DNA of 40,014 bases from Eubacterium sp. (GTDB lineage: Bacteria; Bacillota; Clostridia; Oscillospirales; Acutalibacteraceae). The position numbers were made by a program, and so were the translations under genes. Every line of letters starts with the position of its first letter. The first letter of the stretch is position 1. Where the stretch lies: positions 1-40,014 of the forward strand of contig JAFSRX010000059.1 in NCBI GenBank assembly GCA_017445905.1, in the 5' to 3' direction. Below the pieces are notes generated by a model. It saw nothing but the letters and a program-made list of their open reading frames with translations. It was not told the origin of the DNA and made no database searches. Below, piece by piece: positions 8,058-35,997 of this stretch.

Positions 8058-11000
8058 TTATTTCTTTGTTGTCACTTTTTTCGATGACCAGTCGGAATAA
8101 TACTTTTTACCGCCAACGGTTTTATAGCATCTTATTCTGACATAGTAGGTCTTTTTAGCTTTAAGTTTTTTAACAGTTTTGCTTGTTGTTTTTGATGATT
8201 TTACAACAACAGTTTTCTTGTTTTTTGTGAATTTGCTGTTCGTTGCATACTGAATTTCATATCCCGAACAGCTTGCCTTTTTCCAGGTTGCTTTAAATCC
8301 TTTTGAAAGCGGTGTAACCTTCTTGAGCGAAACCTTTTTCGGATTAATTCTGAACGAAAGAGTTTTAGTTCCTTTATAAAGGTCTTTAAAAGTTACCTTA
8401 ACCTTTGCAGTTCCTACTTTTTTGTTTTCTGAATACTTAACAGTATAGAATCTGCTTTGTATTGTTTTGCCCTTTGAATCCTTAACTGTTACAACTGGCT
8501 TTTTCTCCTTGCCGTCATAGGTATATGATGTATTTAAAAGAGTTACAGTATTGATTTTATAAATTGTTTCTTTAACATTTTTTCTGTAACCGCATTCAAT
8601 GCAAACCTTTTCACTTTCAATTTTTCCGTTTGAAGTTAAGGTTGCAGGAGTACAGTTCGGCGGTCCTGTCTGGAAATCGTGGTTTACACTTGCCCTTCCG
8701 GGAATATATTGAGCTTTTTCACCGTTATAGCTCAACTTTGTAACGGTTACTGTATCAATTTCCGGAGCGGTTGAATTAACAAGATTGCTGAACTGATAGG
8801 AATTATCATTATAAATCTTTATAGTGTTTTCTCCCTCTTTAAGTTCAAGCTGAACATCAAGGGTTTTAAACGCATCCCAGCTAAGTGTGTTTTTGAAATA
8901 TACTGTTTCAGCCTCGCCGCCGTTAACAATAATCTGAGCATATCTTTCAACAAGATCGATATTATAGGGATGAATATAGGTTGAGCCGTCTGCTTTTTCC
9001 ATTATCGGAGCAGGCTCGTTGTTTGAATAGCGGATTGCAAAATTATATGTTCCCTCGCTCGGTGCCTTAACAGTGAAGGTTGAATAGTTTTTATCAGCGC
9101 TTTCGTTGTTAACAGGCTTCTGACCAATGCCGAGCTCACTGATAACATAACCGCTGTTTGCATATGAGTTCTTTTTCAGAGTCGGATTAGTTCCGTGAAT
9201 AGTTATCTCAGAAGCCTTAACAGTTGTTGAAGCATTTTTAGTTTTTTCTTCTTCATAAGTGAAAGTGAGCTTAGTTGCATTGCCAAAAACAACTAATGTG
9301 TTTGCGCCCTTTGCAAGATAGAACGTTTTTTCTGAAGGAACATCATAAACGCTGCACTCAGAGAAAGACTTTGCATCCTTTGCATAGTCAACACACTGCT
9401 TTTTGAGTTCAAACTCACCGTCAGCGCTGACAGTATAATAACCCGGCTCAGGAGCTACTGCAGTAACTCTGTATGTTTCTCCGTCTTTAAAATTGCTCAT
9501 TTCGTCAAGACAGATTTCAAAATTATTTTCGTCTTCTCTTTCTTTTTGGAGAGTTAGTTTATCAAGCGCCGCAACAAGCTGTAAATTGCCTTTGCTGCCC
9601 TCGTTACCATTTATATGTTTATATGTTATTATATGCTGACCCTTGGTTAAATAAAGTTTTGTGTCGCAATGGTTTTTATATGCCCATGTGACTGTTGATT
9701 CAAGAACAATATTTGAAAGCTTTTTGCCATCAAGCTCCATACCGTAAGGAAGCGATTTTCCTATTCCCCTGTTCTGTCCGTTTTCCTGGGGCACAAGAGT
9801 TTTCGGATTTACAAAAGGCGCCTGAAGTGAATAGAAAATTGAAGCGTTATAATATCCTGTTTCGGGAACATCAACAGTGAAACAAACGCCGTCGCCGTTA
9901 TTGTTTATGTTTCCAACATTCATTCTTCCGCTTGTTGCAAAATCAGTCCATCCGCCCTTTGGATATGCCTGCGCCGAGCCGAGAAGCTGAGCGTTTTCAG
10001 CCTCATAGTTGAGATATGGGTATTCAAGGTTTTCGGCATCGGATATTTCTGCGCCATCCTCAGGCTTTGTTAAAACAGCAAAATATGCTTCCATTTCATC
10101 CGTATTATTAATACGGATTTTCAGTGAATTATCCTCTGCTTTGATATTGCCTTCAAATACAAGTTCGGGTTTATAATTTGCGCCAAGCTGTCCTGAAAAG
10201 CTTACTCCGTAGAGCTTTACATGGGTTAAATCGCTGCTGTTTGCTAAATCTGTTTTATCAAAATTATCAAGATATACTGTTTCTTTTCCGTTTTCGTTTT
10301 CATTTCCGCCGAAAAGAACATATCCCATATTTATATCTTCATCATACGATGTTAAGCCATAGAATTTTGTATCTTCAAAATTCGGTGAAACAAGAGGACA
10401 CTGCTTGCCCGTCATCTGAGCATACCAGTGGTAAACCCACCAGGTTGAAGCGGGTGAATTCTGGTCGGCTGCCATTTCGTTTAGTGTGTTTGCCATTGCC
10501 CAATATGCCATGCATCCCGACATATCCTTATCCTCAAACATTGCAAGCCATTTAACAAGTCCGCCAACGGAGCCGATATCATAATGCCTTGCGTATTCAT
10601 TTACAAGAAGCTCGGGTTTTTCGGTATAATACTTATCAACCATTTCCTGGATTTCATCATAATGCTTAAAATAATCAGTTAATGAAATATCTCCTAGCTC
10701 GTGCCAGGTTATAAGCTCCGGAAGGCAGTCGTTATCATAACAGAATTTAAGGAAGGAATCATAGCTTTCCTTTGTATATCCTGCAAAATTCGGTCCTGAA
10801 CAGCGTGCATCGGGGTCTATTGCGTGAACTGCTTCATATATTTTCTTCCAGGCATTTTTAAGTCCGTCAAGATTATTCCAATACCAAATCTGATCAGGCT
10901 CGTTGAAAAGAACATAGCTATAATGCTTTCCGTTTCCATTTAGCTTATAATAGTTTCCGTCGCTGCCTTTAAATGCACCTTCATCACTCTTATCCGCCTT

Positions 11001-31711: not shown

Positions 31712-33577
31712 ATGTTTAACGGCAAATGGATTGCTCCCGAGGAGCTATGGGATAATCTTCATATTGTTTTTTCAAAATCTTTAGTTCTTGAAGAGTTTGA
31801 AAATGCAAAAATAAGAATATCCGCGGACGATTACTATAAATTATATATCAATGATAACTTTGTCGGTCAGGGTCCTGCTCCGTCTTATTGCTTTGCGCAG
31901 AATTTTAACGAATACGATATAAGCCGTTATCTTAAATACGGAAAAAACGATATTAAAGTTCTTGTTTTTTATCAGGGACTTAATAATCGGGTATGGGTCA
32001 GCAACGATGCAAGAGTAGGTTTAATCTGCGATTTGTTTATTGATGATAAACTCTTTGTTTCAACCGATAAAAGCTGGAAATATCAGATTGATGAAAGTTT
32101 CCTTGAGAGCCAAACAGTCGGTTATGATACTGCATTTCTTGAAAACAGGGATATGAGAATACATCTCTCAAAGCAAAAAACAGCAAAAGAAATAGAGGGC
32201 GAATATATTTTTAAAGACGAGCCCTTCCCTGCGCTTCAGATAACATCAAAAAGGGTTAAGCCGATAATTAGCAAAAACACATATTTTTATGATTTCAATC
32301 AGGAATATGTCTGCAACATTAAAATTAAGGCAAATTCAGATAAAAGCGGAAGAAAAATTATAATTCACTGCACTGAGGAGCTTGATGAAAACAAAAAGCT
32401 CAGGTTTGATATGCGCTGCGGTTGCAGATATGAAGAATACTGCATTTTAAAAGAGGGTGAAAACATCATTGAGCAATTTGATTATAAAGCGCTCAGATAC
32501 CTTGAAATAACTGCTGATGACGGCGTTCAAATTGAAGCTGAAATACTGAATCGTCACTACCCCTTTAATGATTTTGAGTTCAGTCTTGAAAATAAAAAGC
32601 TGAGCGAGGTTTTAAATCTCTGCAAAAACACTGTTCTGCTCGGCGCTCAGGAGGCTTTCGTTGACTGTCCTACAAGGGAAAAGGGGCAGTATCTCGGCGA
32701 TGTTTACATTTCGGGCTTTGCACATTACTATCTTACAAAGGATTTCAGACTTCTGAAAAAAGCTATATGCGATTTTGCCGATTCAATCAGATTTTCGGGC
32801 AGATTCCTTTCTGTTGCACCCTGTTCTTATAAGCAGGAAATAGCGGATTATTCTCTTTTGTTTTCGAATATGGTTTATAAATACTATACCTTAACAAAGG
32901 ATGCGCCCTTTCTCAAAAAAATGCTTCCCATATGTTCATATATCAATGATTATTTTTCTGAATTTGAGGACGAAAGCGGACTGCTGATTAATGCAGATGA
33001 GCAGTGGAATCTTATTGACTGGCCGGAGGGCGCAAGAGATAACTATGAAATTTCACAAAAGCATAATGTTTTAAATGCTTATTATTTTAATTCCGTTAAA
33101 AACGAAGAAAAAATAAAAACAGCGCTTGGCATTGATTATAAAAACAAATCAAAAAAGATAAAAACAAGCTTTAACAATGCCTTTTTCAGTGAAGACAAAG
33201 GACTTTATATTGATAATCAAAACAGCAATCATTCATCAGTTCATTCAAACCTTCTTCCGCTGACTTTCGATATATGCGAAGAAAAGCATAAAAATATCAT
33301 TGCCGATTATCTTATAAAAAGAGGAATGAGCTGTTCTGTTTTTATGTCATATTTCTATCTTAAAGCGCTCTGCAATTCAGGCAGAAAAGAAGAAGCGCTG
33401 AAATTCATCACCTCAAATGGCAAACACAGTTGGATAAATATGATAAACGAGGGAGCAACAACTCTTTTTGAAGCCTGGAGCAAGGAAGAAAAATGGAACA
33501 CAAGCCTTTTTCATCCCTGGGGCTCAGCTCCAATTCTGATATATTATGAATATCTTGAAAATGATATGAATATATGA
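31712..33577 (+). CDS. GH78-like alpha-L-rhamnosidase (six-hairpin glycosidase)
   Basis: 621 residues and no signal peptide, so intracellular. N-terminal beta-sandwich parts (KIRISADDYYKLYINDNFVGQG is the typical rhamnosidase N-domain) are followed by a six-hairpin (alpha/alpha)6 catalytic domain from about residue 290. DCPTREKGQYLGD (Asp318 onward) is the conserved active-site stretch, with further conserved NADEQWNLIDWPEGARDNY and FEAWSKEE-KWN...HPWGSAP. It should release terminal rhamnose or a related sugar from imported glycosides. No ribosome binding site precedes ATG 31712. TTGCAT at 31677 and an AT-rich -10 near 31701-31706 would start transcription at the ATG itself, suggesting a leaderless mRNA. 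Confidence 0.85.
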   Translation: MFNGKWIAPEELWDNLHIVFSKSLVLEEFENAKIRISADDYYKLYINDNFVGQGPAPSYCFAQNFNEYDISRYLKYGKNDIKVLVFYQGLNNRVWVSNDARVGLICDLFIDDKLFVSTDKSWKYQIDESFLESQTVGYDTAFLENRDMRIHLSKQKTAKEIEGEYIFKDEPFPALQITSKRVKPIISKNTYFYDFNQEYVCNIKIKANSDKSGRKIIIHCTEELDENKKLRFDMRCGCRYEEYCILKEGENIIEQFDYKALRYLEITADDGVQIEAEILNRHYPFNDFEFSLENKKLSEVLNLCKNTVLLGAQEAFVDCPTREKGQYLGDVYISGFAHYYLTKDFRLLKKAICDFADSIRFSGRFLSVAPCSYKQEIADYSLLFSNMVYKYYTLTKDAPFLKKMLPICSYINDYFSEFEDESGLLINADEQWNLIDWPEGARDNYEISQKHNVLNAYYFNSVKNEEKIKTALGIDYKNKSKKIKTSFNNAFFSEDKGLYIDNQNSNHSSVHSNLLPLTFDICEEKHKNIIADYLIKRGMSCSVFMSYFYLKALCNSGRKEEALKFITSNGKHSWINMINEGATTLFEAWSKEEKWNTSLFHPWGSAPILIYYEYLENDMNI

Positions 33578-33583
33578 TATAAT
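33555..33583 (+). promoter_or_regulatory. Promoter of the cobalamin riboswitch transcript
   Basis: TTGAAA, a 17-bp spacer and TATAAT, overlapping the stop codon of the rhamnosidase gene. Transcription starts near 33590, at the first base of the riboswitch P1 stem. Confidence 0.85.
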
Positions 33584-33589
33584 TTACTC

Positions 33590-33735
33590 GCAGCAAACGG
33601 AATTGGGTCAGAATCCCAAGCAACAGCCATTACCGTATCTGACGAAAAGAATCTATTATGCCATTGGGAGAGCTTTCCTGAGAAGGCAGATTCGTTAGCA
33701 TGTGCCTATATATCACAAGCCGGGAGACGCGCTGC
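33590..33735 (+). promoter_or_regulatory. Cobalamin (B12) riboswitch aptamer
   Basis: P1 closes as GCAGC (33590-33594) with GCTGC (33731-33735). Inside are GGGTCAGAATCCC (usual GGTGaAAaTCC), CAACAGCCATTACCGT (usual GCCcGCxACTGT), GCCATTGGGAGAG and the B12 box AAGCCGGGAGACGCGC (usual AGCCAGGAGACCTGCC). The order and spacing of these blocks are those of the cobalamin riboswitch. It sits between a strong promoter and an intrinsic terminator, upstream of a secreted transcobalamin-like protein. Expected behaviour is premature termination when B12 is abundant. Confidence 0.9.
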
Positions 33736-33809
33736 AAAATCAATTCAAACCTTGGGCAATGAAGGCGGCGGATTGCATGGCATATTGGTATGCCTTATTT
33801 CTGTGCGCC

Positions 33810-33836
33810 AACTCTTCCCAAGGGAAGAGTTTTTTA
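33810..33836 (+). terminator. Riboswitch expression-platform terminator
   Basis: AACTCTTCCC-AA-GGGAAGAGTT followed by TTTTAT, ending a few bases before the GGAGGAAG ribosome binding site of the next gene. Confidence 0.88.
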
Positions 33837-33849
33837 TTTGGAGGAAGAT

Positions 33850-35997
33850 ATGAAAAAGATTTTATCATTATTTTTAGCGCTTACTCTTGCAGTATCAGGT
33901 CTTGGAACCGGCATAACTGTTTTTGCAGAAAATGAGGCAATCAATGCTCAGTTCAGCGTTTATGACGGCGAGTTTGTTAAAGAACCAACAACAATTAAAG
34001 TTACAGCGGATTTATCCGACAAATATGGCTTTACCGATAATGAAAGCAAGCCAACAATTCTTGATGCAACAGTTGCAGCGCATCTTGAAATGTTCGGCAA
34101 TACCGACGGACTCAGCATATCCGAAAGCGGCTGGACAACAAGTGTATTTGGCAAAGACGCATCAACGTTTTCATACAGACTCAGCGGGAACTTTGCAAAC
34201 GGTATGAGTGACAAAATATCTGACGGTGATTATATTGAATATATGTTTTTCAGCGACACTGTCGGATGGAGCGATACATACACATTTTTTGACGCCAGAA
34301 ATAAAGATGCATTCAGAAACGAAAGCATAACCCTCACTCTTTCAAAAGAGGGCTATGATGAAAACTGGGCACCCGTTATTGTTCCTGCTGCAAATGCAGA
34401 TATAACCGTTAACGGAATTGAATTCGGCAAAACGGATAGTAACGGGAATATAACCCTTTCCTTTGATAAAGTCGGAACATATAATATCAGCGCAAAAAAT
34501 AATATTGACTCAACTCCGATTTTTGCACCATGGTGCACTGTTAATGTTTCAAACACAAAGCTTTTTAACTATGTTGAAAAAGAAACAAAGGGCGCCGCAG
34601 CGTATCTTTTAAAAGATGTTAAAGCTCTTGATGTCAACAGCGCTGTTGACTATTTAAAATATCTTAAATCAGGCTATGATATGAGCAAATATAACAATGC
34701 TTTTCTTGCAAGCGTTAAAGCAAACCTTGATGAAAACAGCGGAAAGCTCAGCACTGCCCCTGTCAGTGGATATAAAAGTGAAATGGGAAATTACGGCGCA
34801 GTTATTCAGATTTTAAATATTCTTGGAGAGAATGCAGAAGATTTTGAAGGATATAATCTTTATGAAGCGCTTAAAAATATTGATTTAAATGAATCATATC
34901 ACCCCTACTATTATAGGGTTGCTATCGAAGCTGCTGACGAAGCTTTTGCAAAAACTCTTTGCGATAATCTCATTTCAAAATACTATGTTAAGGGCAGCGG
35001 TCTTAACTACTGGGGCTTTTCCTGCGACAACACAGCGCATTTCTTAACTTCAATTTCAAAGTATAAGGATGCCTACAAGGAATATGTTGATGATGCAAAA
35101 AAAGTTATAAAAACATATACAAAAGAAAACGGCGCGTATGCAGATAATACATATGTTCCCTATGTTAACCCCGATTCAACAGCGCTTGCAATGATGGCTT
35201 TTGCATCAGTCGGCGATGTTGAAACTGCTTTCACATATTATAAAAATCTTGTTGAAAGCTTTGAAGGCAAAACAGGCATTATATTATATAACGGAGAAGA
35301 AAATCTCATTGCAACAAAGGATGCGCTCCTCTCACTTGAATATTTCAAAAATGAGATTGAAGCAAAGGGCTTTGAGCATCCCGAGGATGTTATTAAAACA
35401 ACAACCGTTAAAGCAACAACAAAGAAAAGCGGCAGTATAACAAAGACCTGCGTTATCTGCGGTAAATCAACCAAAACAACAATTTATTACCCGAAAACAG
35501 TAACCCTTTCAACAACTACTTATACTTATAACGGAAATGAAAAGAAGCCTTCCGTAACCGTTAAAAACAGCAAGGGGAAAACAATTTCAAAAAGCAACTA
35601 CACTGTTAAATATTCAAATAACAAAAAGGTTGGAAAAGCAACCGTTAAATTAACCTTCAAAGGCAATTACAGCGGCAACATAACAAAAACCTTTGTTATT
35701 AAACCAAAGAAAACAAAGCTCACTTCCGTTAAGGCAGGCAAAAAAAGCATAACTGTAAAATGGAACAAGCAAACAAATCAGACAAACGGCTATCAGCTTC
35801 AGCTTGCAACAAATAAAAGCTTCACAAAGAATAAGAAATTAATAAACATTTCAAAAAATAAAACCTCAAGCAAGAAAATCAGCTCGCTTAAGGCAAAGAA
35901 AAAATACTATGTCAGAATAAGAACATATAAAACCGTTGACGGCAAAAAATACTATTCCTCCTGGAGCAGTTATAAAGCAGTTACAACAAAGAAATAA
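33850..35997 (+). CDS. Secreted transcobalamin-like (DUF4430) protein, putative corrinoid-capture protein
   Basis: 715 residues from ATG 33850 after GGAGGAAG; a longer frame from 33790 runs through the terminator hairpin and is rejected. A signal peptide (1 to about 26) is followed by a DUF4430-like beta domain (about 33-155, with FSYRLSGNFANGM and ISDGDYIEYMFFSD), a small beta domain (about 160-235, ITVNGIEFGKTDSNGNITLSF), and an (alpha/alpha)-barrel-like region (about 238-505) with aromatic and amide-rich loops (GSGLNYWGFSCDNTAHF, VNPDSTALAMMAF). The tail has a CVICG knuckle, an Ig-like repeat and a fibronectin-III-like domain rich in lysine. DUF4430 is the domain of the transcobalamin C-terminus. 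With the B12 riboswitch this suggests extracellular corrinoid binding (inference). Confidence 0.82.
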   Translation: MKKILSLFLALTLAVSGLGTGITVFAENEAINAQFSVYDGEFVKEPTTIKVTADLSDKYGFTDNESKPTILDATVAAHLEMFGNTDGLSISESGWTTSVFGKDASTFSYRLSGNFANGMSDKISDGDYIEYMFFSDTVGWSDTYTFFDARNKDAFRNESITLTLSKEGYDENWAPVIVPAANADITVNGIEFGKTDSNGNITLSFDKVGTYNISAKNNIDSTPIFAPWCTVNVSNTKLFNYVEKETKGAAAYLLKDVKALDVNSAVDYLKYLKSGYDMSKYNNAFLASVKANLDENSGKLSTAPVSGYKSEMGNYGAVIQILNILGENAEDFEGYNLYEALKNIDLNESYHPYYYRVAIEAADEAFAKTLCDNLISKYYVKGSGLNYWGFSCDNTAHFLTSISKYKDAYKEYVDDAKKVIKTYTKENGAYADNTYVPYVNPDSTALAMMAFASVGDVETAFTYYKNLVESFEGKTGIILYNGEENLIATKDALLSLEYFKNEIEAKGFEHPEDVIKTTTVKATTKKSGSITKTCVICGKSTKTTIYYPKTVTLSTTTYTYNGNEKKPSVTVKNSKGKTISKSNYTVKYSNNKKVGKATVKLTFKGNYSGNITKTFVIKPKKTKLTSVKAGKKSITVKWNKQTNQTNGYQLQLATNKSFTKNKKLINISKNKTSSKKISSLKAKKKYYVRIRTYKTVDGKKYYSSWSSYKAVTTKK

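Follow-up and report, generated by a model that had tools for sequence, protein, structure and literature searches.

In a 40,014-nucleotide stretch of a Eubacterium sp. genome (GCA_017445905.1, contig JAFSRX010000059.1; the window), a gene preceded by a cobalamin (B12) riboswitch encodes a protein that is probably a B12-repressed surface trap for cobalamin or related corrinoids, feeding an energy-coupling factor (ECF) transporter of the ECF-CbrT type. This reading is supported because relatives of the protein tie both of its halves, an N-terminal beta domain (N half) and an alpha/alpha barrel (C half), to B12 riboswitches and ECF-CbrT. When B12 is scarce, the riboswitch would let transcription pass a terminator, and the protein would be exported and then held at the cell surface. 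Its beta domain and barrel would clamp a corrinoid between them in the manner of the two transcobalamin domains, and the corrinoid would be handed to the CbrT-type transporter encoded on another contig (C41), supplying methionine synthase.

The sequence-only reading of the window had claimed a cobalamin riboswitch, and the covariance model bears this out. The leader matches RF00174 with 53.5 bits over the full aptamer (model positions 1-189), above the gathering score of 31.5 bits, and it is the only RF00174 match at E<=0.001 in a search of the whole window genome (2.27 Mb, 97.43% complete). The aptamer is followed by a hairpin with a T-run, a GGAGGAAG motif and the ATG at 33850 (Table 1). The putative promoter overlaps the 3' end of the upstream gene (31712-33577), which family searches identify as a rhamnosidase-like glycosidase. 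Two other explanations of the leader were dropped: a chance riboswitch match, given how high it scores and that relatives are controlled in the same way, and control of the rhamnosidase-like gene, because that gene precedes the riboswitch and stops at the promoter.

The riboswitch search in relatives covered 40 of 80 genomes, which were picked mainly for long flanks and not at random, and riboswitches and genes were assigned to the same contig by coordinates rather than by name. At E<=0.1, RF00174 gave 42 matches in 36 of the 40 genomes, and 32 genomes contained at least one match above the cut-off. A riboswitch lies upstream of the gene for the C half (the C gene), on the same strand and within 8 kb, in 30 of the 40 genomes (24 above gathering), with 0.07 expected. 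Among shorter loci, a cobalamin-clan riboswitch was found at the gathering threshold in 7/19, 6/20, 6/20 and 3/18, some of these loci overlapping genomically; two of these riboswitches belong to the AdoCbl-II class. At L014 and L069, the riboswitch 5' of the N-half gene is AdoCbl-II instead of RF00174. At L149 and L163 (genomes G494 and G501), a second cobalamin riboswitch is located directly 3' of the C gene, before a block containing EcfT and EcfA.

Gene order was surveyed at 80 loci, those of the named relatives closest to the C protein, with counts taken over eligible loci. In 67 of 72 such loci, the N gene precedes the C gene. Downstream of the C gene, the 66 eligible loci contain EcfT (60), EcfA (60) and EcfS (57), and all three are present in 55. 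A profile of nine S components, including the one from the window genome, has 6fnp as its best solved match (E 1.1e-19), and 6FNP is ECF-CbrT, the B12 transporter of Lactobacillus delbrueckii (PMC5997447). This match bears on the alternative that the window protein scavenges cobalt or another metal or cofactor under B12 control and binds no corrinoid. Some cobalt transport operons likewise lie behind B12 riboswitches (PMC2667541), and an EcfT of the operon weakly matches the CbiQ family. However, the S components match CbrT best, CbiD is not found in the window genome (see below), and both types of domain are the ones that make up B12 carriers; we give this alternative very little credence.

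A corrinoid trap would find its partners within the window genome. The sequence-only reading had guessed that capture feeds a transporter encoded elsewhere, and this guess proved right: contig C41 carries a three-gene ECF operon whose S component belongs to the CbrT family, and no FecCD/BtuC permease was found in the genome at E<=0.01. The C41 S component is 34% identical to the S component of the L083 operon (E 1.1e-30) and is flanked by EcfT- and double-EcfA-type frames, as read from their translations, so that the transporter combines a CbrT-homologous S component, EcfT and EcfA. One B12-binding domain is present in the genome, within a methionine synthase-type frame beside a metF-like frame (frames named by reading). 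CbiD, the single B12-biosynthesis marker tested, was not found at E<=0.01 in this 97.43% complete genome, and on this marker alone the host lacks key B12 biosynthesis enzymes. The only DUF4430 match in the genome is a 251-residue lipoprotein-like sequence on contig C1, which shares 48% identity over 147 positions with the DUF4430 lipoprotein of L004, a locus where the riboswitch and the alpha/alpha gene flank the lipoprotein gene. Since the stretches around these genes showed no other riboswitch even at E<=1, the window gene is the single one seen to lie behind a cobalamin riboswitch in a seemingly scattered uptake system. The window also carries an anaerobic ribonucleotide reductase (NRDD), a class that needs no B12. 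On contig C44 (L102, 3226-6279), a 191-residue frame between the metF-like and 773-residue methionine synthase-type frames may be a separate activation-domain-like protein.

The window protein was modelled with AlphaFold from a balanced 28-row alignment, chosen because a 71-row alignment misplaced the alpha-only rows. The model places a confident (alpha/alpha)6 barrel at residues 236-510, preceded by a small beta domain and an immunoglobulin (Ig)-like domain, so the kind of barrel seen in transcobalamin and intrinsic factor is present, and the beta-first order proposed from the letters alone holds in both sequence and model. Homologues give weak CarboxypepD_reg matches, below cut-off, in the Ig-like region. 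A relation of the beta domain to DUF4430, also proposed earlier, was recovered at the family level by profile comparison: the N-family profile (A11, 38 sequences) aligns with the DUF4430 profile of relatives (A10, 17 sequences) with an hhalign probability of 73.7 and an E value of 2.9e-5, the latter referring to a single comparison. When profiles were run against PDB sequences, the DUF4430 profile gave six weak matches, five of them transcobalamins (E 0.056-0.91), and the N-family profile gave no meaningful match. The operon C-protein profile matched squalene-hopene-type terpene cyclases (E 4e-12), and a profile of six alpha-half sequences (A2) gave chance matches only. By eye, the strand-helix order of the window beta domain resembles that of a relative's true DUF4430 domain in the predicted structures. 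Together, these comparisons give moderate support to a divergent DUF4430/SLBB domain.

Related Clostridia of gut and rumen usually encode the two halves of the window protein in separate neighbouring genes. Of 200 genomes searched at the family level, 17 had matches, the window genome itself among them, some to the N half and some to the C half. One of the relatives, L003, has the same fused architecture with 45% identity and lies behind a 73.8-bit cobalamin riboswitch. Scanning close-relative contigs with the single window protein gave no matches; an alignment-based scan succeeded. Of 295 genomes from the order, 94 gave a match at E<=0.001 to the C-half profile and 91 to the N-half profile, own genome included, but many weak N-half matches span the signal-peptide region only and are therefore not to be counted as homologues. 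A C-family frame is present within the fetched stretch in 26 of 29 N-loci (L053-L081) and is not found in the fetched stretches of L068, L076 and L079. The usual C protein consists of an alpha/alpha toroid and DUF4430 (two scanned, ten aligned), and beta-first fusions with a recognised DUF4430 occur at L046, L031 and L047. Two tandem N-half domains per protein are found at L008, L019 and L079 (G098) and at L080 (G418). C-half relatives at L028, L033, L036, L041 and L048 carry S-layer homology domains, and a cobalamin riboswitch lies near L033, L036 and L041.

This composition raises the possibility that the window protein is half of a multi-protein complex that binds no corrinoid alone and needs the C1 DUF4430 lipoprotein as a substitute for a missing C-terminal DUF4430. 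The usual C protein has its own DUF4430 after an apparent membrane hairpin, and the window protein lacks it; the likeness of the C1 lipoprotein, the genome's one DUF4430 match, to the riboswitch-operon lipoprotein of L004 fits such a substitution. However, the C1 gene is unlinked to the window gene and has no riboswitch nearby, and the N and alpha/alpha parts are already fused in the window protein. We therefore consider such a complex possible but somewhat doubtful.

Several results weigh against a corrinoid trap. The window protein has no match to PF01122 in Pfam at E<=1, and none to PF14478 (DUF4430). Its own ECF operon is unlinked to the window gene and has no nearby riboswitch. Ten of the 40 genomes lack a riboswitch upstream of the C gene (six have one elsewhere, and none was found in four), and two genomes of the same genus had no match to the window protein in the 200-genome search. 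The candidate antiterminator pairing has a probability of 0.0 when the platform is folded alone; because this folding disfavours pairing of CCTTGGG with CCCAAGG, the switching mechanism is one that we only infer. Transcobalamin is absent among the 50 structure matches listed for either model, in lists filled by one domain, and the barrel matches are general: squalene-hopene cyclases and other terpene cyclases, epimerases, and the glycoside hydrolase families GH105 and GH88. The fold alone therefore leaves an enzyme possible, one whose substrate would be a bound corrinoid or surface polysaccharide and which would process rather than capture. The rhamnosidase-like neighbour is in keeping with such a role, but its gene stops where the promoter and riboswitch start, and B12 riboswitch control together with ECF-CbrT linkage in many genomes indicates corrinoid uptake; we regard an enzyme as quite unlikely.

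On balance, the trap reading is the one we prefer. A protein that would work like transcobalamin under B12 repression is well supported by comparative genomics, but membership of the window protein in the transcobalamin/intrinsic factor family is not supported, because it has no PF01122 match and its beta domain comes first. The earlier observation was thus confirmed as a whole and its interpretation as a corrinoid scavenger was supported, with binding itself predicted.

The C-terminal tail qualifies the earlier description of the protein as secreted. The protein is apparently exported, but it may be surface-retained rather than free. A search of the window genome with its C-terminal 166 residues gave 49 matches, own copy included; 20 copies were fetched, of which 17 end at a stop codon and three extend beyond the fetched end. 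Because this module is common to dozens of proteins of the genome, we propose that it may serve as a general cell-surface retention module there. The lysine-rich Big/fn3-like module ends with KKYYVRIRTYK..GKKYYSSWS..K and recurs across the genome, at 35497-35994 (+) and 8061-8549 (-) of the window and at 47 other places.

Table 1 Features of the window gene and its leader (positions in the window; residues of the encoded protein).
Feature	Position	Strand	Basis or detail
Sigma-70-type promoter, putative	33555..33583	+	TTGAAA (33555), 17 bp, TATAAT (33578); sequence
Cobalamin riboswitch aptamer RF00174	33574..33750	+	53.5 bits, E 1e-10, full-length match
Candidate antiterminator strand CCTTGGG	33750..33756	+	Complementary to 33817-33823 (CCCAAGG); sequence complementarity only
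Intrinsic terminator-like hairpin and T-run	33810..33835	+	9-bp stem, -12.6 kcal/mol
Ribosome binding site GGAGGAA	33840..33846	+	3 bases 5' of start codon; sequence
Gene for 715-residue, apparently exported protein	33850..35997	+	Homologous over residues 33-504 to L003, 45% identity
Signal-peptide-like segment, residues 1-26	33850..33927	+	By eye from sequence
Beta domain, residues 27-143, probably divergent DUF4430/SLBB	33928..34278	+	AlphaFold strands and one long helix
Ig-like/carboxypeptidase-regulatory-like domain, residues 144-235	34279..34554	+	AlphaFold strands
(alpha/alpha)6 barrel, residues 236-510	34555..35379	+	
C-terminal Big/MBG and fn3-like tail, residues 550-715	35497..35997	+	fn3 E 3.5e-5, MBG_3 E 0.0041, both below Pfam cut-off

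Bacterial proteins of this kind, in either domain order, were already published in 2007. Burroughs et al. named the SLBB superfamily, described bacterial toroid-SLBB fusions in both orders and operons that add another extracellular SLBB protein together with a CbiO-like ATPase and a CbiQ-like protein, pointed out that key B12 enzymes are usually missing from the hosts, and suggested that such proteins scavenge B12 and were transferred to animals (PMC1796856). Their secreted or surface proteins resemble ours, in which the SLBB domain is a probable one, in combining SLBB (the clade of the transcobalamin C-terminal domain) with an alpha/alpha toroid and Ig-fold fusions, and the operons of our relatives, with T, A and S components downstream, resemble theirs. 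In the window protein the toroid is clear, the SLBB domain is recognised by the profile link only, and the signal peptide by eye; the DUF4430 of relatives is clear. The differences are that the window protein has a divergent beta family missed by Pfam DUF4430, that both operon proteins are fused, and that the ECF genes are unlinked. The available parts of that paper contain no CbrT-type S component, and the word "riboswitch" is absent from its main text. Within the titles, abstract openings and passages of the open-licence literature, no link of these proteins to B12 riboswitches or CbrT was found. As far as these searches show, control by a riboswitch, the connection to CbrT, the divergent N family and the stand-alone fusion are apparently new.

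Comparison with other systems places the protein further. Compared with the animal carriers transcobalamin, intrinsic factor and haptocorrin, the window protein starts with its beta domain, has an Ig-like domain before the barrel, ends in a Big/fn3 tail and gives no PF01122 match, and its B12 binding is predicted. BtuG, BtuH and BtuJ (DUF4465) of Bacteroides serve TonB-dependent uptake in Gram-negative cells, and their folds differ from that of the window protein. They are alike by functional analogy, as gut surface or exported B12 binders at B12 uptake loci (PMC6143338, PMC8941943, PMC10404256, PMC13398666). The animal proteins share the alpha/alpha toroid with a DUF4430/beta-grasp domain and are extracellular B12 carriers (PMC1796856, PMC4350170). 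ECF-CbrT of L. delbrueckii is shared through the operon S family and the homologous T-A-S operon of the window genome (PMC5997447), to which the systems described here add dedicated extracellular proteins.

Gut bacteria compete for B12 and other corrinoids, and finding out how many of them acquire these compounds has been described as an open problem (PMC6593275). For Oscillospiraceae, Ruminococcus and Lachnospiraceae, our analysis offers a concrete, widespread uptake candidate that is controlled by a riboswitch and has a named transporter family. We lean slightly towards a broader view, in which gut and rumen Clostridia would possess a distinct B12-uptake machine: ECF-CbrT plus a dedicated extracellular clamp of two proteins (a divergent SLBB protein and an alpha/alpha-toroid/DUF4430 protein), typically governed by a single B12 riboswitch. 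In this view, ECF transporters would have extracellular capture proteins, the window protein would be much or all of the clamp in one polypeptide, and animal transcobalamin and intrinsic factor would have descended from such a machine. The candidate makes the 2007 proposal of a Gram-positive origin for animal B12 carriers directly testable, and it would bring extracellular capture to a transporter class whose membrane S component counts as the binding protein.

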